Shown piece after piece: positions 162 through 55,609 of a stretch of 55,609 nt of DNA. The position numbers and the translations under genes were made by a program. The notes under the pieces were generated by a model. That model searched no databases. It saw only the letters and a list, made by a program, of their open reading frames with translations, and had not been told where the DNA came from. The stretch lies in contig NZ_JALXBK010000077.1 in NCBI RefSeq assembly GCF_026991475.1, forward strand, positions 1 to 55,609, given 5' to 3'. The DNA comes from Sulfurimonas sp. Lineage in GTDB: Bacteria; Campylobacterota; Campylobacteria; Campylobacterales; Sulfurimonadaceae. The stretch's first letter is position 1, and each line of letters opens with the position of its first letter.

Positions 162-1114
162 ATAAATCTGCACACAATGCTCTTTTAGATTGGTACACAA
201 CAGATGGACGCCACGAACTTCCGTGGCGTAAAACAAACGACATTTATCATATTTATATCAGTGAAATTATGCTGCAACAAACTCAGGTTAATCGTGTAAG
301 AGATGAGTATTATCCAAAATTTTTAGCGAGATTTCCTAGCATAAAAACTTTGGCAGAGGCAGAGCTTGATGAAGTTTTTGTACTCTGGAGTGGATTGGGG
401 TACTACTCTAGGGCTAGAAATTTACATAAAACTGCGCAACTTGCACTGAATGGACTCCCTTGTGAGAAAAAAGAGCTCCTAAAACTGCCAGGAATAGGCG
501 AATATACGGCAAGTGCAATTTGCAGCTTCGGATATAGACAAAATATTCCTGTAGTCGATACAAACATTGCAAGAGTGCTAAAACGCTACTTTGGACTCTT
601 AGAGGTTCAAGATAAAACTCTCTGGGAATATGCTGCTAGCTTTGTAAACGCAGCTGATGCTAGAGCGCATAATCTTGCTTTAATGGATTTGGGTTCATTA
701 GTTTGTTTGCCTAAAAACCCGCAATGTGAAATGTGTCCGTTGCGTTTAGAGTGTAAAGGGAAGGGTGAACCTGAACTCTATACACAAAAAAAGAAAAAAG
801 AGTATGAGAGACTTGAACTTTTTTACGCACTATACATAAAAGATGGTAAAATAGCATTAAGAACGTCACAAGAGAAGCTCTATAAAGGGATGTTGGTACT
901 TCCAAATACAGAACCTATTGAAGAGAATTTCATCGCTGCGTTTAAGCACTCTTATACGAAGTACAGACTCACTGTTAATCTTTATCATGTTGATAAGATT
1001 ACAGATGAATTTGTCTGGGTAGAATTAAAAGAACTGGAAAATGCACCGATTTCATCATTAACGAAAAAAGCGGCTGTTTTTATCGAAAAAAAAGGGGAAA
1101 TATATGGATTTTAA
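155..1114 (+). CDS. mutY: A/G-specific adenine DNA glycosylase MutY
   Basis: MutY removes adenine mispaired with 8-oxoguanine in base excision repair. The 319-aa protein has the helix-hairpin-helix LPGIGEYTA (about 111-119), the catalytic Glu37 in [10 protein letters not shown] and Asp135 in [10 protein letters not shown]. The iron-sulfur loop Cys184-X6-Cys191-X2-Cys194-X5-Cys200 has the spacing expected for a [4Fe-4S] cluster. The C-terminal NUDIX-like oxoG-recognition domain is short (about 225-319), as is common in this phylum. The start overlaps the upstream frame by 7 nt and the 3' end overlaps the chemoreceptor gene by 11 nt, suggesting co-transcription. Family assignment is firm. Confidence 0.95.
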
Positions 1115-3224
1115 ATCTATGTCAATCAGTAAAAAGGTACATATACCATTAGTGGTGTCTATTTTAATAGGCTTTTTAATAGTTTTAGTGAACTACTTAT
1201 ACTCTATTAAAGATTTGACCAATAATGTTTACAATAAAGAGCAAAAATCTTTGGTATTGACATATAGGGGCTTGATGCATGCCAAAGAAGATATAGGGCT
1301 TACTAATGCCATTAATATATCGGAAAATTATAGTGTTGTGCGTGCACTTCTTGAAAATAACAGAACAGTAGCGATTGAAGGGCTCAAAGACCTCTCAAAA
1401 GAGTTTAAAGAGTACACAAACTACAAAAATATTAAGGTGCATATTCATGATGCAAATATTCATAGCTTTTTAAGAGCATGGAAGCCAAATAAATATGGTG
1501 ATGATTTAAGCGGTTTTAGATACACTATTGTTGCAGTTAAAAAAGAGAAGAAGCCTATAGTTGCCATTGAACTTGGACGTGCTGGTTTAGTTTTAAGAGG
1601 TATTGCTCCTGTTATTGAAAGTGGTAAATATCTTGGTTCTGTAGAGTTTATGCAGGGTCTTAATTCTATTGTTAAATCTGCAAGAAAAAACCATGATTAT
1701 GATATTGTCATAGTGATGAAAAATGATTTACTCTCCATTGCTACAAAACTGAAAAATGCTCCAAAACTTCAAGACTATACTTTGGCAGTTAAACAAAAGG
1801 TTGTTAATCCTGATTTTTTTGAAGATTTAAAACATATTCAAATTAATAAAACTGAGCACTTTCAAATGACGAATAAATATTTTGTTGTCTCAGAACCTAT
1901 TAAAGATTTTTCTGGAAAAGTTGTGGGATTTGCATTGGTTGGTAATAAAATAGCAAATGTAAATAGTGTCATATCACAATCTAAAGATTCTCTTTTACGA
2001 CAAGTTTACATTATGTCATTTATTGATCTGTTAATTTTACTATTTTTGCTTATTATTATTAAAAAGTCAGTTACAGACCCTATACTTAATCTTGATACAG
2101 TAGCAAGTGAATTGGCTCAGGGTGATGCTGATTTGAGTAAAAGAATGCCGATCAACAGTGATGATGAATTAGGGCGAGCTAGTAAAAGTTTTAATACTTT
2201 CTTGGATAAGGTAGAACAAATTGCCCTTGATGCGCAAGAAAATGCAATAGAAGCTGAAAAAGCAGCAAAAATTGCCGAGTCTGTTGCTCAAAATAATAGA
2301 CTAACACTTGCACTATCTTCTGAAATGATTGGTGGCGCGGTAAAGAATGCTGATAATTTGCGAAAAAGTATGAATGAGAGTGTTCAAAGTGTTAATCAGG
2401 CAAATGAACTTAATGAACAGACATCTAAAGTTATTCAAGAGGTTACTGAATCAACAGGTAATATTAAAAATGCCATTCATAACATTACAGAGATGGTGAG
2501 TGAATCAAGAAATTCTGCTGAGGAATTAAATACGAATGTTGAAGAGATTTACAATGTTATTTCTCTTATTAAAGATATATCTGACCAGACGAATCTCTTG
2601 GCACTAAACGCAGCAATAGAAGCTGCCCGTGCAGGTGAACATGGACGTGGATTTGCCGTAGTGGCTGATGAGGTAAGAAAACTTGCAGAGCGTACACAAA
2701 AAGCGACAAGTGAAGTGGAAGCAAATATTAGTGTATTAAAACAAAACTCTATAAGTATGAGTGAAAATAGTGAAAAAATTGAGTTGCACTCGGTAGAGTC
2801 GCAAAGTACACTTGATGAATTTGTCGATACCCTTACGCAGTTAATTGAAAATAGTAAAATCATTACAAGAGATAATGAAATGATTGGTCATGAACTTTTC
2901 GCGAATATGGCTAAACTTGACCATATGGTATATAAAAATCATGCCTATTCTTCTATGCTCGAAGGGAAATTAAATTTTGAGCTTACAGATCAAGAGAGTT
3001 GTATGTTTGGAAAATGGTATGCAAAAGAGGGAAAAACCCATTTTGGATTAAGTAGTAGCTTTAAAGCAATTCAAGCACCTCATAAAAGGGTTCATGATGA
3101 TATTGCAAAGGCTATGAGCAAACTTCAAAGTAAAGAGATAGATGAAATTATTGCTCTCTTTAAAGATGCAGAAAAAGCCTCACTTGAACTCTTTATGCAG
3201 TTAGATTCAATGATGAAAGAGTGA
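1104..3224 (+). CDS. Methyl-accepting chemotaxis protein with Cache-like sensor and C-terminal CZB zinc-binding domain
   Basis: This is a 706-aa membrane chemoreceptor. TM1 spans about 13-34 and TM2 about 301-321, enclosing a periplasmic region that looks like a double-Cache sensor. A HAMP segment follows (about 322-375), then the signalling hairpin with the conserved tip [20 protein letters not shown] (about 494-513). After a long linker the C-terminus (about 603-700) is a chemoreceptor zinc-binding (CZB) domain with His607, Cys633 in CMFGKWY, His660 and His664. CZB domains bind zinc and in other bacteria sense hypochlorous acid or zinc. A receptor combining a periplasmic sensor with a cytoplasmic CZB could integrate two signals; the ligands here are unknown. 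There is no CheR-tethering pentapeptide at the end. Confidence 0.93.
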
Positions 3225-3310: not shown

Positions 3311-4306
3311 ATGGCTGTAAAAGTGGCAATAAATGGAACTGGTAGAATAGGAATGATTGTAGCAAAGATTGTTACAAGTAGAGATGACATTGAACTTGTA
3401 GCGATTAATACTACTGCAAAACCAGATATGCTTGAGTACCTTTTTAAATATGACAGTGTACATAGCGGTGTCGATGCAAAAGTTCTTGATGAAAAGACGA
3501 TTATGATTAATGGTAAAACTGTTGCTATGAGTTCTACGCGTAATCCTGAAGAGCTTGAGTTTGGTAAGGCTGGTGCGGAAGTTGTAATAGAGTGTACGGG
3601 TGTGTTCTTAACGACTCAAAAGGCAAAAGCTTACCTAAAAGATGGTGTTAAAAAAGTAGTGATGAGTGCTCCTGCAAAAGATGATACTCCTACTTATGTT
3701 ATAAATATCAATACTGATGATTATAAGGGTGAAGCGATTATTTCAAATGCAAGTTGTACAACAAATGGACTTGCTCCTCTTTGTAAAATTTTAGATGATG
3801 AGTTTGGAATTGAAAATGGTTTGATGACGACTATTCACTCATATACAAATGATCAAAATATTTTAGATGTAAAACATAACAAAGATATGCGTCGTGCGCG
3901 TGCAGCTGCTGTTAACCTTATTCCTACTACAACGGGAGCTGCAAAGGCTATGGCTCTTGTTATGCCTCAACTAAAAGGGAAGCTTAACGGCTACGCTATG
4001 CGTGTTCCTACTCCTGATGTCTCTGTAGTTGACTTAACTGTAAACTTGAAAAAAGATGTAACACTTGAAGATATTAACGCTGCGTTTGAGAAGGCTTCAA
4101 AAACAAATTTTGCGGGTCTTTTAGAGATTGATTATGACAAAAGAGTCTCTAGTGACTTTATTGGGTCTACATATAGTGCAACATATGTACCAGATATGAC
4201 AAGTGTTGTTGATGGTAAAACAGTAAAAGTTTTAGCATGGTATGACAATGAGTGGGGATATAGCTCAAGACTTGTAGATATGTGTGTTTTTGTAGGAAAT
4301 AACTAA
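3311..4306 (+). CDS. gap: Glyceraldehyde-3-phosphate dehydrogenase, possibly NADP-preferring (GapB-like)
   Basis: This 331-aa enzyme interconverts glyceraldehyde-3-phosphate and 1,3-bisphosphoglycerate. The Rossmann motif INGTGRIG, catalytic Cys149 in SNASCTTN and His176 in TTIHSYTND are present. The Asp that normally follows the second beta strand in NAD-specific enzymes (AIND) is replaced by Thr (AINTTAK). The Pro of the DLPHKD loop is replaced in DVKHNKDMRR, which carries one extra residue. Both changes are typical of NADP-accepting GapB-type enzymes, so an anabolic role in gluconeogenesis or carbon fixation is inferred. AAAGGATTGG lies just upstream of the ATG. pfkA follows after 27 nt, probably in one transcript. 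Confidence 0.95.
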   Translation: MAVKVAINGTGRIGMIVAKIVTSRDDIELVAINTTAKPDMLEYLFKYDSVHSGVDAKVLDEKTIMINGKTVAMSSTRNPEELEFGKAGAEVVIECTGVFLTTQKAKAYLKDGVKKVVMSAPAKDDTPTYVININTDDYKGEAIISNASCTTNGLAPLCKILDDEFGIENGLMTTIHSYTNDQNILDVKHNKDMRRARAAAVNLIPTTTGAAKAMALVMPQLKGKLNGYAMRVPTPDVSVVDLTVNLKKDVTLEDINAAFEKASKTNFAGLLEIDYDKRVSSDFIGSTYSATYVPDMTSVVDGKTVKVLAWYDNEWGYSSRLVDMCVFVGNN

Positions 4307-5578: not shown

Positions 5579-6211
5579 ATGTTAGAGAATGAATGCATGA
5601 AAACGATGGACTTTAGGCATGCTTGTAAGATGTTTGATGAGAGTAAAAAGATTTCTGATGAAGATATGCTTTATATCTTAGAAGTTGCAAGAAAATCACC
5701 ATCCTCTTTTGGTATGGAAGCGTGGAAGTTTTTGGTAATTACAAATGAAGAGCTAAAAGTAAAGTTACGACCCTCTTGCTGGAATCAACCGCAGATTACA
5801 AGTTGTTCTCACCTTGTAATAGTTCTAGCTGGTATTGAAAGTGTGAAAGTGGCATCTGGTGAAGTAGAAAAACGATTTGCAAGACGTCAAATGCCACAAG
5901 AGAGTCTGGATATGTATATGAATCTTTATGCAGGGCACTTAAAAGATACACTTAGCAGTGATAATAAAATTTATGCATGGACTTCAAAACAGACTTACCT
6001 TGCAGTAGCAAATATGATGAATGCTGCTGCGTTTATAGGCATAGATTCTTGTCCCATTGAGGGATTTGATAAGAAGCAGGTAGAAGAGCTTTTAGAGCTA
6101 GATACAACGAAATTTCAACTCTCTTTGGTACTTCCTTTTGGCTACCGTTTAAATGAGCAACCAGCGCAGATAAGACGTCCTTTTGAAGAAGTTGTTACGT
6201 TTATAAAATAA
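5579..6211 (+). CDS. Nitroreductase-family NAD(P)H:FMN oxidoreductase
   Basis: This is an FMN-dependent oxidoreductase of the nitroreductase fold. The N-terminal FRHACKMFDESKKIS and the following ARKSPSSFGMEAWKFLVI segment (Arg-x-Ser-Pro-Ser plus Trp, FMN phosphate contact) are typical, as is the C-terminal ALVLPFGYR-like strand (SLVLPFGYR). I place the start at the ATG at 5579 because GGAG lies six bases upstream; an in-frame ATG at 5567 would add four residues, and a third candidate lies at 5597. The physiological substrate cannot be told from sequence; members reduce nitroaromatics, quinones or flavins. It begins 28 bp after the MITE-like element, which may therefore affect its transcription. 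Confidence 0.88.
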   Translation: MLENECMKTMDFRHACKMFDESKKISDEDMLYILEVARKSPSSFGMEAWKFLVITNEELKVKLRPSCWNQPQITSCSHLVIVLAGIESVKVASGEVEKRFARRQMPQESLDMYMNLYAGHLKDTLSSDNKIYAWTSKQTYLAVANMMNAAAFIGIDSCPIEGFDKKQVEELLELDTTKFQLSLVLPFGYRLNEQPAQIRRPFEEVVTFIK

Positions 6212-6278: not shown

Positions 6279-6659
6279 GTGCAGATACGAGTCTATTACG
6301 AAGATACCGATGTAGGTGGTGTTGTTTACCACTCAAACTATCTCAATTTTTGCGAAAGGGCGCGCTCTGAAGCCTTTTTTAAACGCAGTAAAAATCCCAT
6401 TTTAGAAAGTGGGCATTTTGTGGCTCGTAAGATCAATGCTGATTTTTTTAAGAGTGCAAAACTTGGAGATATGTTAGATATTCAAACGCAGCTCATAGAG
6501 ATGAAAGCTGCTTCTTTTATGCTTAAGCAGACTATTTTTAGAGATGATGAGAAGATATTTGAGTTAGAAATATTGCTTGTGCATATTGACTTTTCGGCAA
6601 AGATACAGAGAATGAATCAAGAGACTAAAGGTATAATTTTATCTCTTTTTGAAGAGTAA
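6279..6659 (+). CDS. ybgC: YbgC-type acyl-CoA thioesterase (hot-dog fold)
   Basis: This small hot-dog-fold thioesterase carries the family signature VYYEDTDVGGVVYHSNYLNF with the catalytic Asp in EDTD, followed by ERAR. YbgC proteins hydrolyse short-chain acyl-CoAs or acyl-ACPs and are often linked to the Tol-Pal envelope system. I choose the GTG at 6279 as the start because AAGGAG lies seven bases upstream and the protein then begins QIRVYYEDTD like other family members (126 aa). The in-frame ATG at 6255 would add eight residues with no ribosome-binding site. The MFS gene starts 2 nt after the stop. Confidence 0.9.
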   Translation: MQIRVYYEDTDVGGVVYHSNYLNFCERARSEAFFKRSKNPILESGHFVARKINADFFKSAKLGDMLDIQTQLIEMKAASFMLKQTIFRDDEKIFELEILLVHIDFSAKIQRMNQETKGIILSLFEE

Positions 6660-6661
6660 AT

Positions 6662-7792
6662 ATGATGAAAAATATTGATAAAAATGTCATCTATTTAGGC
6701 TGGGTGAGTTTTTTTACAGATATGGCATCAAATATGATTACAACACTGTTGCCTATATTCATCATCTATGTTTTACATGAGGGCGTGGATAAGCTTGGTA
6801 TTATCATTGCTATCTCTACCTTTATTTCCTACGCTTTTCGTATACTTTTTGGTTATTTGAGTGATAAGTATCAAATAGTAAAACCATTTGTTGTGAGTGG
6901 GTATTTTATTTCTGCTGTTTCAAAGCCACTGCTGGCATTTTCAACTACATTTACCAGTGTTGCTCTTTTGCGTGGTGTTGAGAGAATGGGAAAAGCGGTG
7001 AGAAGTGCTTCAAAAGATTCTCTTATTAGCAGTTATGTAAAGAACAACTCGCATGGCAAGACTTTTGGTTTTCATAAGATGATGGATATTTCTGGAGAGC
7101 TCAGTGGAGCACTTATTATTTTTCTTATTTTTATGTTTGTATCAAAAGATGAGCACTCTATACGCACTATATTTGAGCTGACAATTATTCCAGGGCTTAT
7201 TGCCACTTTCATTGCACTCTTTTTTGTAAAAGATGCACCTAAAAAAGAGAAGAAAGATAGTAGTGTTCTAAACGCAGCCGATTATAAACTTTTACCAATC
7301 TTGATTATCTACTTTATATTTGTCTTTTTTATTATGAGTGATCAGTTCTTTATTTTAAAGGCAAAAACGGATGGCTATGCACTGAGCACTATTCCTCTAT
7401 TTGTAATGTTGCTTACTGCAATTCAGAGTTTGTCAAGTTATTACAGTGGTTATTTGAGTGATAAAATAGGTGTTATTCGTACTTTGCAACTTGCATTTGT
7501 TTTTGGATTATTATCGGTTTCTTTGATGGATGTAGAGTTATGGGCTGCGTTTACATCGCTTGGACTCTTTACTATTTTTAGTCTAAACGCAGTGAGAAGT
7601 TACATATCTGCTTACGCCTCTTCAAAAGGTTTTGTGTTTGGTGTTTTTTATGGTGGTGTTGCTATCTCAACTGCTTTAGGTGCTTTAGCCATAGGCTATA
7701 TTTGGCAACTATATGGTTTTGATCGTGCAATGCTTTTTAGTGAAGTAGGTATGAGTTTGATGTTTCTTATACTACTTCTAAAAAAAGCTTAA
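6662..7792 (+). CDS. Major facilitator superfamily transporter
   Basis: This 376-aa integral membrane protein has about ten to twelve hydrophobic helices. The start LGWVSFFTDMASNMI is characteristic of an MFS subgroup often annotated as drug or metabolite efflux. The loop between helices 2 and 3 carries the MFS motif A relative FGYLSDKYQ (about residues 62-70), and a related sequence GYLSDKIGV appears at the equivalent loop of the second half, supporting a two-half MFS architecture. It is 2 nt downstream of ybgC, so probably co-transcribed. It converges with the minus-strand gene at 7789 with a 4-nt overlap of stop codons. The substrate is unknown. Confidence 0.88.
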   Translation: MMKNIDKNVIYLGWVSFFTDMASNMITTLLPIFIIYVLHEGVDKLGIIIAISTFISYAFRILFGYLSDKYQIVKPFVVSGYFISAVSKPLLAFSTTFTSVALLRGVERMGKAVRSASKDSLISSYVKNNSHGKTFGFHKMMDISGELSGALIIFLIFMFVSKDEHSIRTIFELTIIPGLIATFIALFFVKDAPKKEKKDSSVLNAADYKLLPILIIYFIFVFFIMSDQFFILKAKTDGYALSTIPLFVMLLTAIQSLSSYYSGYLSDKIGVIRTLQLAFVFGLLSVSLMDVELWAAFTSLGLFTIFSLNAVRSYISAYASSKGFVFGVFYGGVAISTALGALAIGYIWQLYGFDRAMLFSEVGMSLMFLILLLKKA

Positions 7793-9102
7793 TATTTAGA
7801 AAACTTGGAGAGACCTGGTCTAATAAGTTCTATATTATACTGAACTTGATTCTCTTGCATTGGAGTTTTATACTCTCTAGGCTCACCTGTGATTAATTTG
7901 TAAAAGTAGTCTATTCCGATGGTAGTAGAGTAATTTATCCAGTCATAAACAATGTCGTTATGTAGGAGTAAATTTGCTTCTATAAGGACATTGTTCTCTT
8001 GCGTAATTGAGTTTGCTATTATCATCTTTTTTCTATCTCTATATTGTGTCATCGACAAAATAAGAGGATCATAATTTATTTGTGTTGAGAGAATATTTGT
8101 TGTATTTGTGTCATAAAGTGTTAGCTGTGACATAATCATTCCTGTTTTAATGACAGGTGTATTTATAAAAAATGAGGCATCGTTTATCTTTTCATTATCT
8201 TTGAGATAGCGTTGTAAATTTGTCGTTCTTCTTGAAATTGTGTAGTTGATGACGTGTTTCCCGTCACTAAGATTTTCATCTTCTGGTAAAGCATTTTCAC
8301 TTGTATCTGTTTGCATATCATAGACACTTACTTCATCTGCATAAGACATACTTTCATTTACATCTATGGTCGGATGTAAAAATTCCTCTTTTTGGTATGT
8401 AGCCAGCTCTTTTCCAGTATGTGATTTATCGGAAAAAATAACGAGAGGAGAAACAGCCTTTTTTAGAAGAAGTTTACTTTGCTGTTTGTAGTTGATACCA
8501 CCAAAATAGAGATATGGTGAAGTAGAATTGACATCATTTTTGTTAATAGTTGGAAAGTAAATATTTAGATTTGGATCTATAGCAATGACATTATCAACGC
8601 CTTTCTTTGTTAGAGGTGCTATGACATAATCATAACCATCTGCTTTAATTTTTCTAAACGCAGCCTCAATATCACCAATATTTTCGCTCTCTATTTTATA
8701 GCTTTTAAGTGAAAAAGAGTTACTTTTTGTCATTAGATAGGCAAAGACTGCATTTGTGGTAGATGAAGCATACTTTCCTATTTTTTTGTATGGTAGTAGC
8801 ATAGCTATATTTAAGCCGCCACGACTGTTAAAAGCTCCTAAATTAAGGACAGAAACATTCATTTTTCTAATGTCATCAAGTGCTTTATTGTCAAGTTTAT
8901 GATCAGCATGTGCCATAAAAGAAAATATCATTCCTTTGTCAAGGAAATCTTGAAGACAGATGTCGTTACACTCATAAGGATCAAGATTTTCAATATAAGT
9001 TTTTGGTAGTGGTATTGGTGAAATCATAAAGCTTTGTGCAAACATAATAGAAGGAGTAAAAAAAAGTAGTAATAATTTTATAGATAATTTCATAAGTGGC
9101 AT
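7789..9102 (-). CDS. Secreted periplasmic-binding-protein-like protein (LppC/LpoA-like, tentative)
   Basis: This 437-aa protein has an N-terminal signal peptide (KLSIKLLLLFFTPSIMFAQ). The middle resembles a type I periplasmic-binding fold: VSVLNLGAFNSRGGLNIAML followed by LLPYKKIGKYASSTTNAVFA is like the opening of LppC/LpoA and branched-chain-amino-acid-binding proteins (a 'lll P ... G ... A' pattern). LpoA-like proteins activate penicillin-binding proteins; whether this one does is unproven. The first residues are MPLMK, and the second Met (9093) is an equally plausible start because neither has a clear ribosome-binding site. It stands alone on the minus strand between convergent and divergent neighbours. 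AAACGCAG occurs inside it (8656). Confidence 0.6.
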   Translation of the reverse strand: MPLMKLSIKLLLLFFTPSIMFAQSFMISPIPLPKTYIENLDPYECNDICLQDFLDKGMIFSFMAHADHKLDNKALDDIRKMNVSVLNLGAFNSRGGLNIAMLLPYKKIGKYASSTTNAVFAYLMTKSNSFSLKSYKIESENIGDIEAAFRKIKADGYDYVIAPLTKKGVDNVIAIDPNLNIYFPTINKNDVNSTSPYLYFGGINYKQQSKLLLKKAVSPLVIFSDKSHTGKELATYQKEEFLHPTIDVNESMSYADEVSVYDMQTDTSENALPEDENLSDGKHVINYTISRRTTNLQRYLKDNEKINDASFFINTPVIKTGMIMSQLTLYDTNTTNILSTQINYDPLILSMTQYRDRKKMIIANSITQENNVLIEANLLLHNDIVYDWINYSTTIGIDYFYKLITGEPREYKTPMQENQVQYNIELIRPGLSKFSKY

Positions 9103-9204: not shown

Positions 9205-10392
9205 TTGAAAATATTACACACATCAGATTGGCATTTAGGTCAAAGTTTTATGGGAAAAAGTAGAGAAGAGGAGCATCAGGCATTTCTAACGTGGCTTCTT
9301 GAACTTATAGAGAAAGAGGACATCAGTGTGCTTATTGTCGCTGGAGATATTTTCGACACAGGTACGCCATCAAACTATGCCTTAGAACTCTACTACAATT
9401 TTCTTACAAAACTCTCTCACTCCTCATGTGAAAACATCATTATAACAGCAGGAAATCATGACTCCATAGCTACACTAAAAGCTCCAAAACAGCTTCTAAA
9501 AGCGCTTAATATTCATCTTATTACGAGTGGTGATGAAGATGAAGAGGAGATAGTCCCTATTTATAAGCAAGAGACATTAGAGGGTATTGTTTGCGCTGTT
9601 CCCTTTTTACGAGATTATGTGGTGCGTAAGTCACTTGATGCTCAAAGTATGAGTGACAAAGAGAACGCTTTAACTCAGGGAATTAAAGAGCATTATAACT
9701 GCGTTTACAAAGAGGCGTTGAGCGTAGCAGGGGCAAATGATGTGCCACTAATTGCCACAGGGCATCTTACAACGGTTGGTGCAAAAACAAGTGAATCTGA
9801 GCGTGAAATATACATAGGCGGAACGCTTGATATGGGCAGTGACTTTTTAAGTGAGAAGTTTGACTATGTGGCTTTAGGGCATCTGCATAGTAATCAAAAA
9901 GTCAGCTTTGATCATGTACGCTACTCCGGTTCACCTATTCCTCTGAGTTTTAGTGAAGCATCATCTGAAAAAAAGGTAAACATTATCACATTTAGTGGGA
10001 AAACTCCGAGTGTGCGTGAAGTGAGCATACCGCTCTATCGATCTCTTTTAGTACTTCGTGGTGATACTAAGAGTATTTTGGAAGCATTAAACGCAGTTAC
10101 AGATAAAGAGAGTTGGATAGAGGTACATGTTAATGATGAAAACCCTTTTTATGCTAATCAAGTCATACGAGAAAAAGCTGAAGAGTTAGAGTTGACACTT
10201 TTAGCGGTGAAAATAGACAAAAGTGAACAGGCTCTATGTAGTGAAGATTTTCAAGTCGTGAGTTTAGATGAGCTTACGCCTCTTGATTTGTTTGAAAAGC
10301 GTCTGGAAAAAGAGGAGTTGCAAGATGAAGCATTACGCGATGAGCTTATCAAAAATTTTAAAAATATTGTTGCAGAGGTGCAAAACTCATGA
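9205..10392 (+). CDS. sbcD: Exonuclease SbcCD, nuclease subunit SbcD (Mre11 family)
   Basis: SbcD is the metal-dependent nuclease of the SbcCD complex, which cleaves hairpins and processes DNA ends. All phosphoesterase motifs are visible: HTSDWHLGQ (I), VAGDIFD (II), TAGNHDS (III), a GHLTT and the GHLHSNQ motif (V). The length, 395 aa, is usual. The start is a TTG at 9205 preceded by AAAAAAGGT. Its stop overlaps the sbcC start in ATGA (4 nt), the classical coupled arrangement. An MITE-like long inverted repeat upstream (5282-5550) is the sort of structure this complex attacks, though that is only a coincidence of location. Confidence 0.95.
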   Translation: MKILHTSDWHLGQSFMGKSREEEHQAFLTWLLELIEKEDISVLIVAGDIFDTGTPSNYALELYYNFLTKLSHSSCENIIITAGNHDSIATLKAPKQLLKALNIHLITSGDEDEEEIVPIYKQETLEGIVCAVPFLRDYVVRKSLDAQSMSDKENALTQGIKEHYNCVYKEALSVAGANDVPLIATGHLTTVGAKTSESEREIYIGGTLDMGSDFLSEKFDYVALGHLHSNQKVSFDHVRYSGSPIPLSFSEASSEKKVNIITFSGKTPSVREVSIPLYRSLLVLRGDTKSILEALNAVTDKESWIEVHVNDENPFYANQVIREKAEELELTLLAVKIDKSEQALCSEDFQVVSLDELTPLDLFEKRLEKEELQDEALRDELIKNFKNIVAEVQNS

Positions 10393-22940: not shown

Positions 22941-23102
22941 AACCCTTTTAATTTTGCGAATTATATCCTAAAATTGCTTGGGATTACACATAATGTTTAA
23001 GGAACGAAATGTGTTTTTAAGCATAATAGACATTCACCTGAAATTTTTGTAAAATAGACTAAAAAACTTCAATAAACTAACATTTTAAGTGTTCATTTAT
23101 TG

Positions 23103-23131
23103 TTTAGTATCCACTGTTATTGTGCTATAAT
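23103..23131 (+). promoter_or_regulatory. Putative promoter of the methyltransferase-hydrolase-desaturase operon
   Basis: TATAAT at 23126-23131 is preceded by TGC, forming an extended -10 element. TTTAGT at 23103-23108 can act as a weak -35 with a 17-bp spacer. The methyltransferase ATG lies 37 bases downstream of the -10. This is the only strong promoter-like element upstream of the operon within about 230 bp of otherwise featureless sequence. Confidence 0.45.
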
Positions 23132-23167
23132 GTTCGTTGAATAAATAGTTATATTAAAGGATTATCA

Positions 23168-25529: not shown

Positions 25530-25545
25530 CCTCCAGCCCATTTAA

Positions 25546-46381: not shown

Positions 46382-47112
46382 TAAGAGTTTTTTTTGTTTT
46401 ATTTGTGTTAAGTGCAGCTCTCTTTGGTGCAGATGCTGTCATTCCTACCTTAAATATGAATCTTTCTGCTCCAAAGACTCCTGAGCAGTTGGTTTCATCA
46501 CTAAATGTTTTAGTAATTCTAACACTACTTGTACTTGCACCATCTATGGTTCTTGTGATGACAACTTTTACAAGGTTCATAATTGTCCTTGGATTTTTAC
46601 GTCAAGCACTTGGAACACAACAAGTACCACCAACACAAATTCTTGTAATGCTGGCGATGATACTTACTTTTTTCGTGATGGAGCCTATTGGTACGAAGGC
46701 ATATCATCAAGGTATTCAACCATATGTTGAAAAAAAGATAGGCTATGAAGAAGCATTTACGAAAACGGTATTGCCTTTTAAAAATTTTATGATTAGAAAT
46801 ACTAGAGAGAAAGATTTAGCACTCTTTTTGCGCATTAGAAAGATGAAAAATCCTAAAACTGTTGCTGATGTTCCTCTCTCAATTGTTATTCCCTCTTTTT
46901 TAATTAGTGAATTAAAGACTGCGTTTGAGATAGGTTTTTTACTCTTTTTGCCATTTTTAGTTATAGATATGGTTGTTGCTTCTATCTTGATGTCTATGGG
47001 TATGATGATGCTCCCGCCAGTAATGATTTCTCTGCCCTTTAAGATACTTGTTTTTGTACTTATAGATGGGTGGAACCTCATTATAGGCAATTTGATTGCT
47101 TCAGTTAAATAA
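46378..47112 (+). CDS. fliP: Flagellar type III export protein FliP
   Basis: FliP is a core pore component of the flagellar export gate. The 244-aa protein has a cleavable-looking N-terminus (MIRVFFVLFVLSAALFGAD), the conserved LVLAPSMVLVMTTFTRFIIV and LGFLRQALGTQQVPPTQIL, then TFFVMEPIG. The C-terminal half has the IGFLLFLPFLVIDMVVASIL and SMGMMMLPPVMISLPFKIL membrane segments. It overlaps motB by 4 nt and is followed by trmA after 15 nt. Confidence 0.95.
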   Translation: MIRVFFVLFVLSAALFGADAVIPTLNMNLSAPKTPEQLVSSLNVLVILTLLVLAPSMVLVMTTFTRFIIVLGFLRQALGTQQVPPTQILVMLAMILTFFVMEPIGTKAYHQGIQPYVEKKIGYEEAFTKTVLPFKNFMIRNTREKDLALFLRIRKMKNPKTVADVPLSIVIPSFLISELKTAFEIGFLLFLPFLVIDMVVASILMSMGMMMLPPVMISLPFKILVFVLIDGWNLIIGNLIASVK

Positions 47113-47127: not shown

Positions 47128-48237
47128 ATGGATTGTAAATATTTTGGTGAGTGTGGTGCTTGTAGAGTTTATGAAGGTGGTTATGAGGCACAATTAAGTA
47201 AAAAATTAGAGATTAATGAAGAGCGTTTTGCACCATTTTTTTCTGGCGATATTACTGTTTTTAAGTCACCAGATGAGCATTACAGAGCAAGAAGCGAGTT
47301 TAAGATTTGGCATGATGGTGATGTTATTCGCTATGCTATGAACCATAAAGAGCATAAGGGTGTTGTTTTTATTGATGAATGTCCACAGGTAAATCATTTT
47401 ATTAGTAAGCTTATGCCAAAGCTTCTTGAGGGTATAGAAAGAAAAGAGATGGGTTATAAACTTTTTGGTGCTGATTTTTTAAGTTCTAGTAGTGGTGAGA
47501 TTGTAGTCTCTCTTCTTTATCATAGACAGCTAGACAATGAGTGGCAAAAACTTGCACAGGAGTTAGCTGGGGAGCTTGGAATTTATCTTATAGGTCGCGC
47601 TAGAAAACAGAAGCTTGTCATAGGGCAGGATTATATTACTGAGACGCTAAATATTCAAAACCGAGCCTATAAATTTAACTATATTGAAAATAGTTTTACA
47701 CAGCCAAATCCTCGCGTAAATGAGCAGATGGTTTCGTGGGCAATGGAAAATTTTGCAGATGCACAAGGAGATCTACTTGAACTCTATTGTGGTGCAGGAA
47801 ATTTCACTATTCCTTTTGCAACGATTTTTGATAAAGTGCTTGCAACTGAAATCTCTAAATCTTCCATAAACGCAGCCAAAGAAAATATGCTTTTAAACAG
47901 TGTAGAAAATATAGAGTTTGTTCGTATGAGTGTTGAGGAGTTTGTTGGAGCACTCGATGGTGTTCGCGAATTTCGTCGAATGAAAGATATAGATATAAAA
48001 GCTTACAATATTAACTCCATTTTTGTGGATCCTCCTCGAAGTGGCATGGATGAGGCATCTTGTAATTTTAGTGCAAGATATGAGCATATACTCTATATAT
48101 CTTGCAACCCTGAAACTTTAGTAAGAGATTTAGAAATTTTATCTAAAACGCATGATGTTGTAGCTATGGCACTTTTTGATCAATTTCCATATACACATCA
48201 TGTTGAAATGGGTGTGAAACTCATTAAGCGAAAGTAA
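47128..48237 (+). CDS. trmA: tRNA (uracil-54,C5)-methyltransferase TrmA
   Basis: TrmA makes ribothymidine 54 in tRNA. In this 369-aa protein an N-terminal Cys pattern is Cys3, Cys9, Cys12. NSFTQPNPRVNEQM matches TrmA more than RlmC/RlmD. Other landmarks are LELYCGAGNFTIPFA (SAM binding), DPPRSGMD and the catalytic Cys in YISCNPETLVRDLEIL. It follows fliP by 15 nt and precedes the TrkA-like gene by 2. AAACGCAG is at 47868. Confidence 0.9.
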   Translation: MDCKYFGECGACRVYEGGYEAQLSKKLEINEERFAPFFSGDITVFKSPDEHYRARSEFKIWHDGDVIRYAMNHKEHKGVVFIDECPQVNHFISKLMPKLLEGIERKEMGYKLFGADFLSSSSGEIVVSLLYHRQLDNEWQKLAQELAGELGIYLIGRARKQKLVIGQDYITETLNIQNRAYKFNYIENSFTQPNPRVNEQMVSWAMENFADAQGDLLELYCGAGNFTIPFATIFDKVLATEISKSSINAAKENMLLNSVENIEFVRMSVEEFVGALDGVREFRRMKDIDIKAYNINSIFVDPPRSGMDEASCNFSARYEHILYISCNPETLVRDLEILSKTHDVVAMALFDQFPYTHHVEMGVKLIKRK

Positions 48238-49705: not shown

Positions 49706-50755
49706 ATGCAAGTAAATATTCCCCTAAAACAGATAGTAGATAACTCTTATGATATAACAATTGATGCAATGCCAAAGATGCATTTTCATAAAAAAGTTGC
49801 GATTGTAACAAATCCGAAAGTTGCTGGTTTGCATTTAGCATATCTTTTATCAAAAATTAGTGCTAAAGAGCTCTATATCATTACAGTTCCTGATGGAGAA
49901 GAGTATAAGAATCAGGCTTCAATTGACACTATTTTAGAATCACTTTTTAATCACCGTTTTAACCGTAGTTCTCTACTCATTGCGTTTGGAGGTGGTGTTA
50001 TAGGTGATATGACTGGATACGCTGCAAGTATTTATGAAAGAGGAATTGATTTTATTCAGATTCCTACAACATTACTCTCTCAGGTTGATGCAAGTGTTGG
50101 TGGTAAAACTGGCATGAACAATAGATATGGAAAAAATCTTATAGGTGCATTTCATCAACCCCAAGCCGTATATATTGACCCCATTTTTTTAGAAACATTA
50201 CCAAAAAGAGAGTTTGCAGCAGGCGTTGCTGAAATAGTAAAAATGGCAGTTACTTTTAACAAAGATTTTTTTGAATTTTTAGAGCATGCTGATTTAAATG
50301 ATAAAATTGTTCTACAAGAGGCTATTAAGCAGGCAGTAGAGACAAAAGCTGGCGTTGTTGCAAAAGATGAAAAAGAGAGAGGTTTACGAGCAGCACTTAA
50401 TTATGGACATACTTTTGGTCATGTTATTGAGAGTCAAACGCAGTATAAGCGATATTTGCATGGTGAAGCTGTAGCTATTGGAATGGTAATGGCAAACAAA
50501 ACGGCAGTAGCTATGGGTCTGATGGATGAAGATGAAGCACAGAGGGTTGAAAAGCTTTTACAAAAATATAGCTTGCCGACAGATTATGTTATTGAAGATG
50601 TAGAAGCTTTTTATGAAACATTTTATCTTGATAAAAAAAGTTTAGATGCAAGTGTGACCTTTATTATTCCACATCATCTTGGCGGTGTGAAAATAACTGA
50701 TGCAGTGGATAAACATCTAATTTTGGATGTACTCAAAACTTTTAAGGCTTCTTAA
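49706..50755 (+). CDS. aroB: 3-dehydroquinate synthase
   Basis: AroB performs step two of the shikimate pathway, converting DAHP to 3-dehydroquinate with NAD and a divalent metal. The 349-aa protein shows VPDGEEYKN, the glycine-rich FGGGVIGDMTGYAAS, IPTTLLSQVDASVGGKTG and the metal-ligand stretch NYGHTFGHVIES. It is followed with no gap by the MscS gene (1-nt overlap). AAACGCAG is at 50436. Upstream is a 59-bp AT-rich gap. Confidence 0.96.
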   Translation: MQVNIPLKQIVDNSYDITIDAMPKMHFHKKVAIVTNPKVAGLHLAYLLSKISAKELYIITVPDGEEYKNQASIDTILESLFNHRFNRSSLLIAFGGGVIGDMTGYAASIYERGIDFIQIPTTLLSQVDASVGGKTGMNNRYGKNLIGAFHQPQAVYIDPIFLETLPKREFAAGVAEIVKMAVTFNKDFFEFLEHADLNDKIVLQEAIKQAVETKAGVVAKDEKERGLRAALNYGHTFGHVIESQTQYKRYLHGEAVAIGMVMANKTAVAMGLMDEDEAQRVEKLLQKYSLPTDYVIEDVEAFYETFYLDKKSLDASVTFIIPHHLGGVKITDAVDKHLILDVLKTFKAS

Positions 50756-52407
50756 TGCAGTTGAAATTTTTTATTTTAATTCTTCTTTTTTTACAAACTT
50801 TATATGCGAATGTTGAGACTAATAGTAGTGTAGATAGTAATCTTACAAATGAAGAAGTTTTACTAATAAAGGCAAAACAAGAGTCTCAAAAATATGCAAA
50901 AATAAAAAAAGACAGAGATACTCTTAAAACTTTAAAAATGCAGATTTCAGATGAAAATATGTGGATAAAAAGTTATGCTTCTTATTTGACTGCAGTTGAT
51001 GTAAAAAATAATCTTGATAAAATCAAGAAGAGAATAAAATATCTTTCTAAACATGCAAAAAATGTAAGTGATAAGTCAGAACTCAATGCACTTATTGATA
51101 AGCAAAAGATTTTAGCCACACAGGTGGATAATTTAAAGGGAGATTTTGCACTTGCTCCATTTTCAGAGCTTATAACACCTCCAAATATAGAAAAAATTCC
51201 TGAAATCAGTAATCCTTTTGATATTTTAGGAGGTTATTCTCTTATTAAAACTTTTGATGCGAATTTTGAAGAGTATAAAAAGAAAAAAGAGGCACTCCAA
51301 AATCTTATTAAAACATTGCAAACGCAGCTTAGAATATATAACCACTTAGCAATAATAGATACAGCTCATGATTACAAAAAAGATATAAAAAGACAAAAAT
51401 TACAGTTAGAGATGTTTAGAAGAGCTCTAGATACTATGAATGTAACTATGAATGTTTATCAAAAAAGATTAGATGTTGCCGAGGTAAATATCCATAAAAG
51501 TATTAAAAGACAAATATATGGTCTCATCAAAATTACTATTATTATCTTTTTCATCTTTTTAATCTTCTTTCTTCTCAAATTGATAGTAAAGAAATATATT
51601 ACTGATAATGAACGCTTTTATATGGCAAATAAAATTATTACTTTTGCCAACTTTACAATTATTATATTGGTGCTTTTTTTCAACTATATTGAGAATGTAA
51701 GTTACATTGTAACTATTTTAGGATTTGCTTCAGCAGGTATCGCCATTGCCATGAAAGATTGGTTTATGAGTTTGCTTGGTTGGCTTGTAATTGTTTTTGG
51801 TGGTAGTATTCATGTTGGAGACAGAATCCGTGTGGACCTAAATGGTATGAAATATGTAGGAGATGTATTAGATATTTCACTGCTGCGCATAACAATACTC
51901 GAAGATATTACGCTTACTTCAATTATGCAAAATCGTCGTGCTGGTAGAATTATTTTTATTCCTAATAATTATATTTTTACAAAAATGATAGCAAACTATA
52001 CACATAACTCTTTAAAAACAGTCTGGGATGGAATTAAAATTACCATCACCTTTGACTCAAATCATAAAAAAGCAATGCATTTGGTCAAAGAGATTACCAA
52101 AAAATACTCTAAAGGGTATACTGATATTACAAGAAAACAGTTAAATAAATTACGACAAAATTATAGTCTAAAAAATACAAATGTTGAGCCAAGAATTTAC
52201 TCATTTATTGCGCCAAATGGTCTTGATATTGAGGCTTGGTATTTAACAAATGCGTATGGTACTTTAACATTGAGAAGTGTTATATCGGCTGATATTGTTG
52301 ATGCTTTTAATGCAGAAGATGATATTACCATAGCTTACCCTACACAAAAACTAAATGTCTCTATGCATAATGAAGATGCAATAGAACATAATCACGAGTT
52401 GGTATAA
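50755..52407 (+). CDS. MscS-family mechanosensitive ion channel with long periplasmic region
   Basis: This 550-aa protein has a signal peptide (QLKFFILILLFLQTLYA), a roughly 230-residue coiled-coil-rich periplasmic part and membrane helices near 256-278, 294-314 and 318-350. The last is the pore helix, with the Ala/Gly pattern GFASAGIAIAMKDWFMSLLG. It is followed by the MscS beta domain (GGSIHVGDRIRVD) and the cytoplasmic alpha/beta region. It would release osmolytes on hypo-osmotic shock. It overlaps aroB by one base and mtaB starts 1 nt after its stop. Confidence 0.88.
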   Translation: MQLKFFILILLFLQTLYANVETNSSVDSNLTNEEVLLIKAKQESQKYAKIKKDRDTLKTLKMQISDENMWIKSYASYLTAVDVKNNLDKIKKRIKYLSKHAKNVSDKSELNALIDKQKILATQVDNLKGDFALAPFSELITPPNIEKIPEISNPFDILGGYSLIKTFDANFEEYKKKKEALQNLIKTLQTQLRIYNHLAIIDTAHDYKKDIKRQKLQLEMFRRALDTMNVTMNVYQKRLDVAEVNIHKSIKRQIYGLIKITIIIFFIFLIFFLLKLIVKKYITDNERFYMANKIITFANFTIIILVLFFNYIENVSYIVTILGFASAGIAIAMKDWFMSLLGWLVIVFGGSIHVGDRIRVDLNGMKYVGDVLDISLLRITILEDITLTSIMQNRRAGRIIFIPNNYIFTKMIANYTHNSLKTVWDGIKITITFDSNHKKAMHLVKEITKKYSKGYTDITRKQLNKLRQNYSLKNTNVEPRIYSFIAPNGLDIEAWYLTNAYGTLTLRSVISADIVDAFNAEDDITIAYPTQKLNVSMHNEDAIEHNHELV

Positions 52408-52408: not shown

Positions 52409-53659
52409 ATGAAGAAAAAAGTTTACTTTAAAACATTTGGTTGTCGTACAAATCTTTATGATTCACAAGTTATGATGAGTTCGCTCAAAGAGTATGACAT
52501 AACAGAAAATGAAGATGAAGCAGATGTGATTGTTATAAATTCATGTACCGTTACAAACGGTGCAGATACGCATGTGCGTTCTTACATTTCACAGGTTGAA
52601 AAACATAATGGTGATGCGAAGCTCTTTTTAACAGGATGTGGTGCGCATACTAAAGGAGAGTCACTTTTAAAAGAGAATCGAATTCATGGTGTTTTTGGAC
52701 AGAGTGAAAAGCAGAAAATCGATACATTACTTAAAAAAGAGCAGCCTTTTTACGAGCCAGGTGACTTAAATCATGTAGATGATATGGTGGTAGATGAGTT
52801 CATTGGAAAGAGCAGGGCATTTATAAAAATTCAAGAGGGATGCAATTTTCGCTGTTCTTACTGCATTATTCCTTATGTTCGTGGAGATGCAAGAAGTATG
52901 GATGAGTCACGAATTTTGGAACAGATAACTAGACTTGCAAGCAATGGATTTGGAGAGTTTATACTTACTGGTACAAATGTAGGAAGCTACGGACAAGACA
53001 GAAGAACTTCGCTTGCAAAACTTATGAAAAGAATGTCTCAAATCAGAGGTGTGCGAAGAATTCGTCTTGGAAGCGTTGAACCTATTCAAATAGGTGATGA
53101 ATTTAAAGAGATTTTGGATGAGCCGTGGATGGAGAAGCATATGCATATTGCTCTGCAGCATACTTCGCCAAAAATGCTCAAACTTATGAACAGACGCAAT
53201 ATTTATAAATATGACAGAGAGCTTTTTGAGTTTTTAGCAGATAAAGGCTATGCCATAGGGACTGATTTTATTACTGGGCATCCAGGAGAGAGTGAAGAGC
53301 TTTGGAGAGAAGCTATGCTAAACGCAGGGGAGTTACCTTTGACGCATATTCATGCTTTTACCTATTCAAAACGTGATGGCACACCATCAGCTGTGATGAA
53401 ACCAGAGATAAATGGAAAAGTTGCAAAAGCAAGACTTCATGAATTACAAGATTTGATTTATGCAAAAAATCTTGCGTTTAGAGAGGCATATAATGGTAGC
53501 TTAGATGTATTGATAGAGTCATATAAAGAGGGGCTCTATCATGGGCTTGACCAACACTTTAACAAAATAGTTGTAGAATCTAAAGAGGATTTAGTCGGCA
53601 ATTGGCTAAATATTGAAAATTATGAGGTGAAAAAGGATTTTAATTATGCTAGAGTCTAA
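52409..53659 (+). CDS. mtaB: tRNA t6A37 methylthiotransferase MtaB
   Basis: MtaB adds a methylthio group to t6A37 of tRNA using two [4Fe-4S] clusters and SAM. The 416-aa protein has the UPF0004 Cys triad Cys12 (FGCRTN), Cys46 (NSCTVT) and Cys77 (TGCGAH). The radical SAM motif is Cys145-X3-Cys149-X2-Cys152 in CNFRCSYC. The downstream HIHAFTYSKRDGTPS and a C-terminal TRAM-like region complete the family. The short NxxCTVTN element supports MtaB rather than MiaB. The 3' end overlaps the FtsH-like gene by 14 nt. AAACGCAG is at 53320. Confidence 0.92.
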   Translation: MKKKVYFKTFGCRTNLYDSQVMMSSLKEYDITENEDEADVIVINSCTVTNGADTHVRSYISQVEKHNGDAKLFLTGCGAHTKGESLLKENRIHGVFGQSEKQKIDTLLKKEQPFYEPGDLNHVDDMVVDEFIGKSRAFIKIQEGCNFRCSYCIIPYVRGDARSMDESRILEQITRLASNGFGEFILTGTNVGSYGQDRRTSLAKLMKRMSQIRGVRRIRLGSVEPIQIGDEFKEILDEPWMEKHMHIALQHTSPKMLKLMNRRNIYKYDRELFEFLADKGYAIGTDFITGHPGESEELWREAMLNAGELPLTHIHAFTYSKRDGTPSAVMKPEINGKVAKARLHELQDLIYAKNLAFREAYNGSLDVLIESYKEGLYHGLDQHFNKIVVESKEDLVGNWLNIENYEVKKDFNYARV

Positions 53660-55301
53660 AACAAATCGTATAGCACTTTATGTTTCTGCGCTTATTATCA
53701 TTGCGCTTGTGCTTTTTGCAATTTTTAGAGATAATTCTCAGCCAATATCACTCTCTCAAGCAAATCAACTCTTACAAGATAAAAGTGTCAAAAAGATAGT
53801 GGTAACAAAACAGTATGTATTTTTAAAAACAGATACGGGGTACTATAGAATTCCTTCATCTCAAGTAACTCCTAAAATGTTTGTTGATTATAAAGTGACA
53901 GTAGGCACAGAAGCAAATATATTAATCTATATACTCTTGTTTGTGGTTTTTTTAGGGCTTGGCTCTTTACTTTTTCGTTATTTTCAAAAAAGAAATTTTC
54001 AGTTTGGTGGTGAAGTCCAATCGCAAAATAGTGCTACATCATCAGCGTTAACGTCCGAAAACTCCTCCGTAATCGAAGCCATAAAAAGTGATGTGAGCTT
54101 TGCAGATATTGGTGGTATTAGTGATGTTAAAATTGAGCTTGAAGAGATTATTGACTTTATGAAAAATCCGAAGCGCTACAAAAGTTTTGGGGCACGTATG
54201 CCAAAGGGTGTTCTTCTAGTAGGTCCTCCTGGTGTTGGTAAAACGATGATAGCTAAAGCAGTAGCACATGAAGCAGAGGTTCCATTTTACTACCAAAGTG
54301 GTGCTTCATTTGTTCAAATTTATGTTGGAATGGGTGCAAAACGGGTACATGAACTTTTTTTAGCTGCGAAAAAAAATGCACCCTCTATCATCTTTATTGA
54401 TGAAATTGACGCTGTTGGTAAAAAACGCGATGGCAATAGAAATGATGAGCGAGAAGCCACTCTTAATCAGCTACTAACTGAGATGGATGGATTTGAAGGC
54501 TCAACAGGTGTTATTGTCGTAGCAGCTACAAATAAAATAGATGTTTTAGATTCTGCACTATTGCGTGCGGGACGATTTGATAGGCGTATTTTTGTGGAGT
54601 TACCGACAAAAAAAGAGCGTGAGTCAATTTTACTAAAATATTTAGATAAAGTTCCTCATGAGTTAGATGTTCAGGTTGTTGCAAATATGACAGTTGGTTT
54701 TAACGGGGCAGCATTAGCGGCACTTGTCAATGAAGCAGCACTTTTAGCATTGCGTCAAAATGATTTTCATGTTACTTTAGAGCATTTTTATCAGGTAAAA
54801 GACAAAGTGATGTTTGGAAAGAAAAAGCTTCAGATGTTAAGTGAGCAGCAAAAGGCTTTTCGTGTTACTTATCAGGCAGGAAAAGTTTTAGTGGCAACTT
54901 ACTATGATTTACCATTTGAAAAGCTGATGTTATCTAATGAAAATTTGACACCACAGACGGATGAACCTTTTATTAAGCAAGAACTTGAGTCTCGTGTACG
55001 TATGTTTTTATCGGGTATGGCATCGTGTGATATAAAATATTCTGAGCATTCAAATAATGCAAGAGAGGATCTGCTTCAAGCAAAAGATATAGTAGTGAAA
55101 ATGTGTAATGAGTATGGAATGGCATCTACTTTATTACCACCTGAGGGAGAGCAGGAGTTGATTTTAGAACGTCTCTATAAGGAGACAAAAGATTTACTTC
55201 TCTCTATGCAGGGCTTAGTGGCAAAAGTAGAAGAAGTTTTATATGAGCGTGAAAGTATCAGTAAAAATGAGGTAAAGAAGTATTTAGATGAAATTTTTTA
55301 G
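53646..55301 (+). CDS. FtsH-like AAA ATPase lacking the zinc protease motif
   Basis: This 551-aa membrane protein has helices at about 8-26 and 91-111, a conserved periplasmic segment between them, and an AAA domain. Walker A GPPGVGKT is at 193-200, Walker B IIFIDEID at 248-255, and the second region of homology reads [10 protein letters not shown]. The C-terminus resembles the M41 domain, but the HEAGH zinc motif is replaced by YQAGK (409-413), so all three metal/catalytic residues (His, Glu, His) are lost. It is an FtsH paralogue without protease activity, perhaps a substrate-unfolding chaperone. It overlaps mtaB by 14 nt and the next gene by 14. Confidence 0.9.
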
Positions 55302-55609
55302 CGGATTTTCTCTACAAGATGATGCCATTTTTTTTAATGACTTTATGAGCAAGAGTGACTTTAGTGTCAGTGGTTTTTCTTATGGTGCTATTAAAGCATT
55401 TGAGTATGTGCAAGACGCTTTAAAAGATGGTAAAAGAGTTGATAGATTACAACTTTTTTCTCCTGCTTTTTTTCAAAGCAGAGATATTAAATTTAAAAGA
55501 TTACAGACACTCTCTTTTAAACGCAGTAGTGATACTTATATAAGAGAGTTTATTGAGTCATGTTTTCTTCCGTATGAAGTGCAAGAAGTGGAGCTAATTG
55601 AGGGTAGTT
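55288..55609 (+). CDS. bioV: BioV-like pimeloyl-ACP methyl ester esterase (partial, runs off the window)
   Basis: The start is the ATG at 55288, inside the FtsH-like 3' end. The visible 107 residues begin [20 protein letters not shown] and contain the nucleophile elbow GFSYGA with Ser. They also carry the QLFSPAFF segment seen in BioV of Helicobacter. BioV removes the methyl group from pimeloyl-ACP methyl ester in biotin synthesis. The frame has no stop before the window edge, so the catalytic Asp and His are not visible. AAACGCAG is at 55519. Identification rests on a memory of the family and short motifs. Confidence 0.7.
   Translation, partial: MKFFSGFSLQDDAIFFNDFMSKSDFSVSGFSYGAIKAFEYVQDALKDGKRVDRLQLFSPAFFQSRDIKFKRLQTLSFKRSSDTYIREFIESCFLPYEVQEVELIEGS

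Follow-up and report, generated by a model that had tools for sequence, protein, structure and literature searches.

YAAACGCAGY, a putative Sulfurimonas DNA uptake sequence, and the words found in its place in related clades

A stretch of 55,609 nucleotides from Sulfurimonas sp. (hereafter the window) is rich in the octamer AAACGCAG, to which an earlier note on this DNA had drawn attention. Read with its preferred flanks as YAAACGCAGY, this word is probably a DNA uptake sequence (DUS), as judged from sequence comparisons. Its excess in the window and in the whole genome is real and confirmed: the word is dispersed, free of orientation and over-represented at the level of the DNA, and other words stand in its place in related clades. 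Several of the characters by which DUS and uptake signal sequences (USS) are recognised were found here, i.e., genome-wide over-representation, equality of both orientations, dialects that go with phylogeny and have a shared core, and a pilus-like machine together with ComEC. The earlier note had preferred an uptake sequence to a Chi site or a protein motif, and this preference gained support from the genome counts, synonymous shuffles and strand balance, and most of all from the exclusive words of related species, which partly share a core.

The word in the window and in its own genome

In the window, AAACGCAG occurs 41 times (21 forward and 20 reverse, spanning 646..55526), an exact recount that agrees with the earlier note, as does an expectation near one: the mean was 1.09 and the largest value 4 in 100 dinucleotide-preserving shuffles of the window, and a first-order model gave 1.25. 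The genome to which the window belongs (G000; 2,074,486 bases in 131 contigs) has 669+675 copies on the two strands, versus 23+16 for the reversed-letter control, so that the near-equal orientation extends genome-wide. This total of 1344 is somewhat inflated because the assembly is redundant. Indeed, contig C12 (27,445 bp) duplicates part of the window (25928-53372): over its first 20,000 bases it matches window 25928-45927 letter for letter, and the sites further along are found at a constant offset from window sites up to 53.3 kb. The density amounted to 0.65 per kb genome-wide and to 0.70 per kb in a duplicate-free sample (201 sites in 288,240 unmasked bases). When octamers were ranked in a G000 sample made of the window and 19 further stretches, some of them masked, AAACGCAG came first, with 161 copies versus 7.2 expected from a second-order model (about 22-fold, z 53.7), far above the Markov expectation.

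The flanks of the word are biased as well. A pyrimidine precedes it in 38 of the 41 window copies (T22, C16), as already noted, and follows it in 32 (C19, T13), the corresponding figures in the G000 sample being 144 and 134 of 161. Because the single-letter variant AAACGCAA stands out among variants (55 copies and 3.6-fold in G000, 5.1-fold in G016, 3.1-fold in G014), a purine is preferred at the last position of AAACGCAG; the remaining single-letter variants above two-fold in these three genomes had fewer than 10 copies each. In G122, AAACGCAA reached 9.0-fold and other last letters were also raised, 2.7-fold.

An origin in the usage of codons or codon pairs, or in some recurrent peptide, could be suspected from the placement of the copies: of the 197 lying in open reading frames (ORFs) of the G000 sample, most occupy two frames, with 79 direct and 61 reverse copies. 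Likewise, the 41 window sites comprise 17 in xxA-AAC-GCA-G, 12 in xCT-GCG-TTT, 9 in other frames and 3 outside ORFs of at least 150 aa; the different reading frames claimed earlier are thus mixed, as stated, without being uniform. A word that becomes established wherever the protein can accommodate it would, however, be expected to favour certain frames in this way. When synonymous codons were permuted inside each gene, which keeps the protein and its codon usage (50 rounds), 12.2 copies were expected in the sampled ORFs of G000 (sd 4.0, maximum 21) and 154 were observed, with 9.7 versus 83 in G016 and 4.0 versus 58 in G014. Codon preference switches only where the codon completes AAACGCAG. 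This is illustrated in G000 by the choice of AAC in 79 of 97 xxA-AAY-GCA-G contexts, versus 25 of 127 in other AAY-GCA pairs and 119 of 1331 for AAY before other G codons, and by GCG in 61 of 67 xCT-GCR-TTT contexts, versus 45 of 146 for other GCR preceding a TTY codon. Noncoding DNA is enriched to the same order (coding/noncoding fold 23.7/15.1 in G000, 17.8/27.8 in G016, 20.2/54.9 in G122 and 24.6/28.6 in G124), with small noncoding counts in the six genomes (3, 5, 0, 7, 0 and 3); G014 and G134 have none, versus 0.01 and 0.06 expected. The density of intergenic sites is low, in step with the low intergenic G+C. The encoded peptides differ, as the earlier note had argued against a protein motif. 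Together, the synonymous shuffles, the context-bound codon choice, the noncoding enrichment and the differing peptides contradict an origin in codon usage or a protein motif, an explanation that is hardly credible any more.

No strand bias was observed in G000, where orientation was 96/105, the G-rich strand held 101 sites and the C-rich strand 100, and the stretches taken one by one were consistent with 1:1 (chi2 11.6, 13 df, p 0.56); fourteen fetched loci consisted of N throughout and were uninformative in this analysis. The G-rich/C-rich counts were equally balanced in G016 (55/48), G014 (32/36), G134 (29/27) and G124 (32/33). A chromosome-organising or segregation motif (an FtsK-orienting polar sequence or KOPS, a matS-like site or a nucleoid-protein site) would resemble AAACGCAG in being genome-wide, dispersed and conserved between close relatives. 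KOPS are strongly strand-biased, unlike the balanced and homogeneous orientation in G000, and KOPS or matS-like sites are far sparser than 0.7 per kb, which makes this explanation very improbable. A Chi-like recombination hotspot read by AddAB or RecBCD would also be a short, dispersed, non-palindromic oligomer, and the weak strand bias of the sixth genome, G122, and the mild coding-strand excess in G000 (120 versus 77 sites) could be taken in its favour. As for KOPS, the strand data lend Chi no support, the orientation bias being absent in five of six genomes.

The sites of the window, all exact matches to AAACGCAG, are listed with its other features:

646..653, +, site
936..943, -, site
2606..2613, +, site
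4080..4087, -, site
6027..6034, -, site
6381..6388, +, site in no listed ORF of 150 aa or more
6484..6491, +, site in no listed ORF of 150 aa or more
7270..7277, +, site
7545..7552, -, site, inverted relative to that at 7585..7592, starts 40 bp apart
7585..7592, +, site
8656..8663, +, site
9699..9706, -, site in sbcD
10089..10096, +, site in sbcD
11584..11591, +, site in sbcC
12274..12281, +, site in sbcC
18665..18672, -, site
20159..20166, +, site in glyS
20954..20961, +, site in glyS, at an alignment position with AAACGCAG in 10 of 44 GlyS rows
21253..21260, -, site
21379..21386, -, site
21461..21468, +, site
22247..22254, -, site
22652..22659, -, site
22660..30581, no strand, longest stretch without AAACGCAG, with a Mutator-family transposase and other accessory-looking genes (site positions, Pfam)
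25639-26778, -, Mutator-family transposase (Pfam PF00872) inside that stretch
30582..30589, +, site
30827..30834, -, site
31938..31945, +, site
32607..32614, -, site
33152..33159, -, site
33492..33499, -, site
34585..35400, -, prepilin peptidase for type IV pilins and type II secretion pseudopilins (PF06750 3.2e-36, PF01478 2.7e-12)
34919..34926, +, site in the prepilin peptidase gene
36269..36276, -, site
37676..37683, -, site
37929..37936, -, site
40865..40872, -, site
45654..45661, -, site
46919..46926, -, site
47868..47875, +, site
50436..50443, +, site
51320..51327, +, site
53320..53327, +, site
55519..55526, +, site in no listed ORF of 150 aa or more

The even spread described earlier holds roughly, the gaps averaging 1372 with a coefficient of variation of 1.18, and fails at two gaps of 6.4 and 7.9 kb. 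As regards mobile DNA, the window offers one anecdotal case, a single site-free gap with a transposase and accessory-looking genes. The transposase is flanked by two short ORFs resembling pieces of a fatty-acid desaturase (the first below the Pfam cut-off, the second by eye), beyond which lie an acetyltransferase-like ORF and a MazE/MazF-like pair at 28842-29470 (by eye).

Words across the genus and their turnover

The comparison of related genomes proposed in the earlier note was made over 120 genomes of the genus to which G000 is assigned, G000 included, a genome being taken as word-bearing above 150 copies, a threshold of our own that is not scaled for genome size or completeness. It returned four mutually exclusive octamers: in 46 genomes a single one of them passes 150 copies, and in no genome do two of them pass this threshold. 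The first word, AAACGCAG, does so in 24 genomes, eight of which reach at least 0.45 per kb (G000, G014, G016, G079, G109, G118, G122 and G139). The second, CTCACGCA, was found in seven genomes (G007 767, G013 688, G020 621, G022 948, G027 785, G124 757 and G134 962 copies), the third, AACACGCA, in one (G073, 495+497, control 17), and the fourth, CACATGCC, in 14 (G127 803+865, G133 835+807, G094 1081, G078 1035, and others down to G064 with 152). Near misses below 150 were G003 (146), G134 (141) and G028 (124) for AAACGCAG, G036 (140) and G102 (109) for CACATGCC, and G076 (99) for CTCACGCA. Among these G134, a CTCACGCA genome and the nearest to two-word status, has lopsided AAACGCAG copies (111 forward and 30 reverse), suggesting a local repeat array. 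Of the later words, CTCACGCA reached 50 copies versus 2.6 under the second-order model in G134 and 61 versus 2.3 in G124; the other two are supported by synonymous shuffles, which gave 6.6 for 30 ORF copies of CACATGCC in four named loci and 0.7 for 6 of AACACGCA in L017. Outside the family but within the order, 23 genomes had at most 86 copies of AAACGCAG, and in most of those with the highest counts the reversed word was as frequent or more so.

Words two to four came from listings of over-represented octamers in relatives, and resemblance was not assumed. With their flanks, the four read YAAACGCAGY (G000), AACACGCAA (7 copies, L017), CTCACGCAR and TCCACATGCCR (34 copies, four named loci). 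The first three have ACGCA in common, and the fourth shares A-Y-G-C only. The summed pairwise similarity of the four octamers exceeded that of composition shuffles (P 0.0004), in a test slightly favoured by the choice of AACACGCA, since two overlapping words headed the list of L017 and this was one of them. Words that are exclusive at the 150-copy threshold and partly share a core in related species support an uptake sequence over the alternatives. As to Chi, an AddB/RecB-type nuclease domain (PF12705) is present in 112 of 120 genomes, genus-wide and regardless of the word, whereas from one species to another the word changes or is missing. Judging by known Chi sites, one would expect a Chi reader to retain a single word throughout a genus. 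With the strand data, this makes a Chi-like role quite improbable.

The named relatives of the GlyS encoded in the window are Sulfurimonas, of the phylum Campylobacterota, and place G000 in this genus; over its full length the protein is closest to that of S. indica NW8N (83% identity), and a partial match, L049, has 87%. S. indica NW8N is a cultured isolate, and its locus L009 carries CTCACGCA. On a tree of this one protein (73 rows, quick search), the CTCACGCA genomes cluster with S. indica, L017 (AACACGCAA) falls with them, and AAACGCAG is scattered across several clades. Thirty genomes were chosen for the tree with counts already known; G079 (no GlyS hit) and G139, G023 and G025 (fragments) were left out, and rows with identical GlyS (L009/G124, L010/G027, L022/G016 and L015/G138) are likely one species each. 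The tree holds none of the 14 CACATGCC genomes, nor G073, and named loci represent those words, AACACGCA with one row and CACATGCC with three, labelled from 7-22 kb each. L029 (3 copies of CACATGCC) was counted as word-free, and weak AAACGCAG genomes were scored as AAACGCAG. After removal of the rows labelled '?' (10 of 73), 3 word changes, the minimum possible, were counted over 31 motif-bearing rows versus at least 8 in 300 shuffles, and 10 versus at least 20 when word-free rows were included (63 rows). So few changes indicate that words follow the lineage and were gained or lost several times. A clear local case of gain or loss is G011 (89 copies of AAACGCAG), which groups with G118 (1207 copies).

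Existing copies are retained more often than other octamers. Over 45 kb aligned to G014 (93.4% identity), AAACGCAG was kept at 34 of 39 sites versus 62.7% of all octamers, and over 16 kb aligned to G118 (77%) at 6 of 16 versus 16.4%. The GlyS alignment has the one AAACGCAG position listed above and three CTCACGCA positions, found in 9, 6 and 8 rows of the CTCACGCA clade. In G003, G010 and G029, the Asn codon preceding GCA is AAT in 106 of 107 cases, AAATGCAG occupies the frames with a silent C-to-T change, and 16 of 22 residual AAACGCAG copies lie in frames where C-to-T alters the protein. This pattern may reflect either old sites eroded at silent positions or a true variant. As a further dialect, AAATGCAG was rejected, its background being about 0.1 per kb in the 120 genomes and its rise only two- to three-fold.

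Other repeated words were encountered. CGAAGTCA of G009 was discarded as a dialect, since all but one of its 13 copies are crowded into 0.8 kb of L136, with a single orientation, and 12 of the 13 fall outside ORFs, as in a local repeat; there (contig C2, 13004-13725) CGAAGTCA/TGACTTCG recurs 12 times in one orientation, in a local, possibly CRISPR-like, repeat array. In G016 (L089-L096 and L224, 129,660 bp), a second word, CATGAGC plus any letter, stands alongside AAACGCAG, with 60 copies of CATGAGCG versus 3.8 expected and 58 in ORFs versus 7.3 by synonymous shuffle. The palindrome TACATGTA, absent from the window (0 copies), is over-represented in other loci (L049, L056, L057, L059, L060 and L083; L152 and L153 of G004; L156 and L221 of G011), with 63 copies for an expectation of 2.5 over 151 kb of mixed loci and 10 versus 0.8 in 40 kb of G011. 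On the GlyS tree, its carriers L049 and G011 form a sister pair, grouped with the AAACGCAG-bearing G118; this palindrome may be a fifth, putative, system. Local words elsewhere were AGCGCGCT in L039 (Sulfurimonadaceae), ATCATGAT/TATCATGA in L079 and GATGCTAA in L048 (15 versus 1.2).

Uptake machinery and proposed mechanism

ComEC (PF03772) was detected in 110 of the 120 genomes, and secretins matching the PilQ family TIGR02515 in 112, none above the curated cut-off and with type II secretion secretins among them. In L219 (G014), Pfam identified a secretin, an AAA protein, a PilB/GspE ATPase with an MshEN domain and a PilC/GspF protein; a PilO-like protein fell marginally below the Pfam cut-off, and PilN, PilP and ExeA were recognised by eye. 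This set agrees with the cts gene set of Campylobacter. All ten L219 proteins were matched well or fairly in 17 of 20 secretin-centred loci, L219 included; the incomplete ones were those of G083 (one poor match) and of G020 and G119 (short contigs). In 13 of the 14 genomes compared, the distance between comEC and the prepilin genes is 7-10 kb, whereas in G002 these genes are on another contig. Locus L199, considered as a competence pilus, was set aside, as its gene order reads to us as a type II secretion system. The window does encode the prepilin peptidase reported earlier. As a sign of uptake this enzyme alone is weak evidence, because such a peptidase is also required by the putative type II secretion system of the genome. 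The case for uptake machinery is better made by the Cts-like locus and ComEC.

In the proposed mechanism, DNA holding the word would be preferred by a receptor on the cell surface, which is probably one of the minor type IV pilins of the Cts-type pilus, and word-bearing fragments would be drawn through the secretin, threaded via ComEC and recombined. Alleles with a copy would then spread by molecular drive, so that copies would accumulate wherever the protein sequence allows. If the preference of the receptor drifted in a lineage, the word would be replaced, giving the dialects AAACGCAG, AACACGCAA, CTCACGCAR and TCCACATGCCR; if it was lost, copies would erode.

Several observations weigh against such a role. 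More than half of the genus (74 of 120 genomes) exceeds 150 copies of none of the four octamers, and 16 of the 24 AAACGCAG genomes are weak, at or below about 0.4 per kb. Taken singly, the pairs of words are weakly similar: of six, only AACACGCA-CTCACGCA falls below 0.05 (P 0.022), the remaining pairs among the first three words giving P 0.072 and 0.083 and those with CACATGCC 0.15 to 0.46. G122 has a G-rich-strand excess of 74/48 (p 0.023) and heterogeneous stretches (p 0.031), in one of six genomes and uncorrected for six. Opposite-orientation pairs within 40 bp number 2 among 201 sites; in Neisseria and Haemophilus, by contrast, such pairs form terminator stems, a frequent though not a defining character of known uptake words. 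Cts-like loci are complete in the word-free G011, G031, G005, G002 and G084, and the presence of secretin and ComEC does not separate word-bearing from word-free species, so that it does not predict the word. Nothing linked the prepilins next to comEC to the word when their charge was compared in five genomes, and pilin charge was not decisive as a clue to the receptor. Since the machinery is also found in word-free species, it is necessary at most, and the word must hinge on a detail of the receptor.

Comparison with known systems

Neisseriaceae and Pasteurellaceae are called the only families known for such uptake words in a 2025 paper (PMC12616744), the same two families are named in PMC5031613, and in the passages on the subject in PMC2734928 and PMC9444244 uptake words are discussed for Neisseria/Neisseriaceae and Pasteurellaceae only. 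In the open-licence literature, we found no report of uptake words in Sulfurimonas, Campylobacterota, Sulfurovum or Epsilonproteobacteria (for looser queries, among the matches listed), in line with the earlier note, which knew of no such motif in this group; the letters of the octamer as a text query gave no on-topic title among the matches listed. It is fairly likely, from the distribution of the words, that Campylobacterota hold a third origin of sequence-specific uptake, with at least three word switches in one genus, repeated loss and eroded copies still visible. If so, this third independent case, in another phylum and with four words in one genus, would make origin, switching and loss comparable. 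It would also provide a new handle on the receptor problem, a marker of species-specific gene flow in uncultured Sulfurimonas, and an aid to Sulfurimonas genetics, the right word being added to donor DNA.

In the same phylum, C. jejuni is described as taking up DNA methylated by CtsM at RAATTY, through the PilQ-like secretin CtsD and ComEC, with discrimination of self-DNA at the first uptake step (PMC8468864, PMC10046745). The nearest rival explanation is accordingly a methylation-dependent self-recognition of this kind, in which a solitary methyltransferase would modify the word and the uptake system would read the methyl mark instead of the naked sequence; a change of methyltransferase would likewise switch words between species. 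RAATTY is, however, a short palindromic methylation site, whereas the Sulfurimonas words are longer (8-9 letters), non-palindromic and about 20-fold over-represented, and the preference for pyrimidines on both sides in G000 is more like the footprint of a receptor. We consider this rival unlikely.

An uptake word read by a receptor also has counterparts outside the phylum. The USS of H. influenzae is reported as a nine-letter word with about 1300 copies, often in terminator stems (PMC5217627), and two Pasteurellaceae dialects with a conserved GCGG core are described (PMC12616744); in H. influenzae, the uptake of sheared genomic DNA has reportedly been followed by sequencing (PMC7811141). The copy number is similar to that found here; the word is another, and close inverted pairs are rare in Sulfurimonas. 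For the Neisseriaceae DUS, eight dialects tracking the core-genome tree and having a conserved CTG core are reported (PMC3630211). The Sulfurimonas words differ from them in sequence and phylum, in having few intergenic copies and a function that is putative, and in that no counterpart was identified of ComP, the minor pilin that reads the DUS. The likeness lies in the arrangement: thousands of dispersed copies and dialects that follow the species tree there, and here four words, each limited to part of the tree, three of them with ACGCA. The best reading of this pattern is that of DUS-like self-recognition tags, resembling the dialects of the Neisseriaceae.

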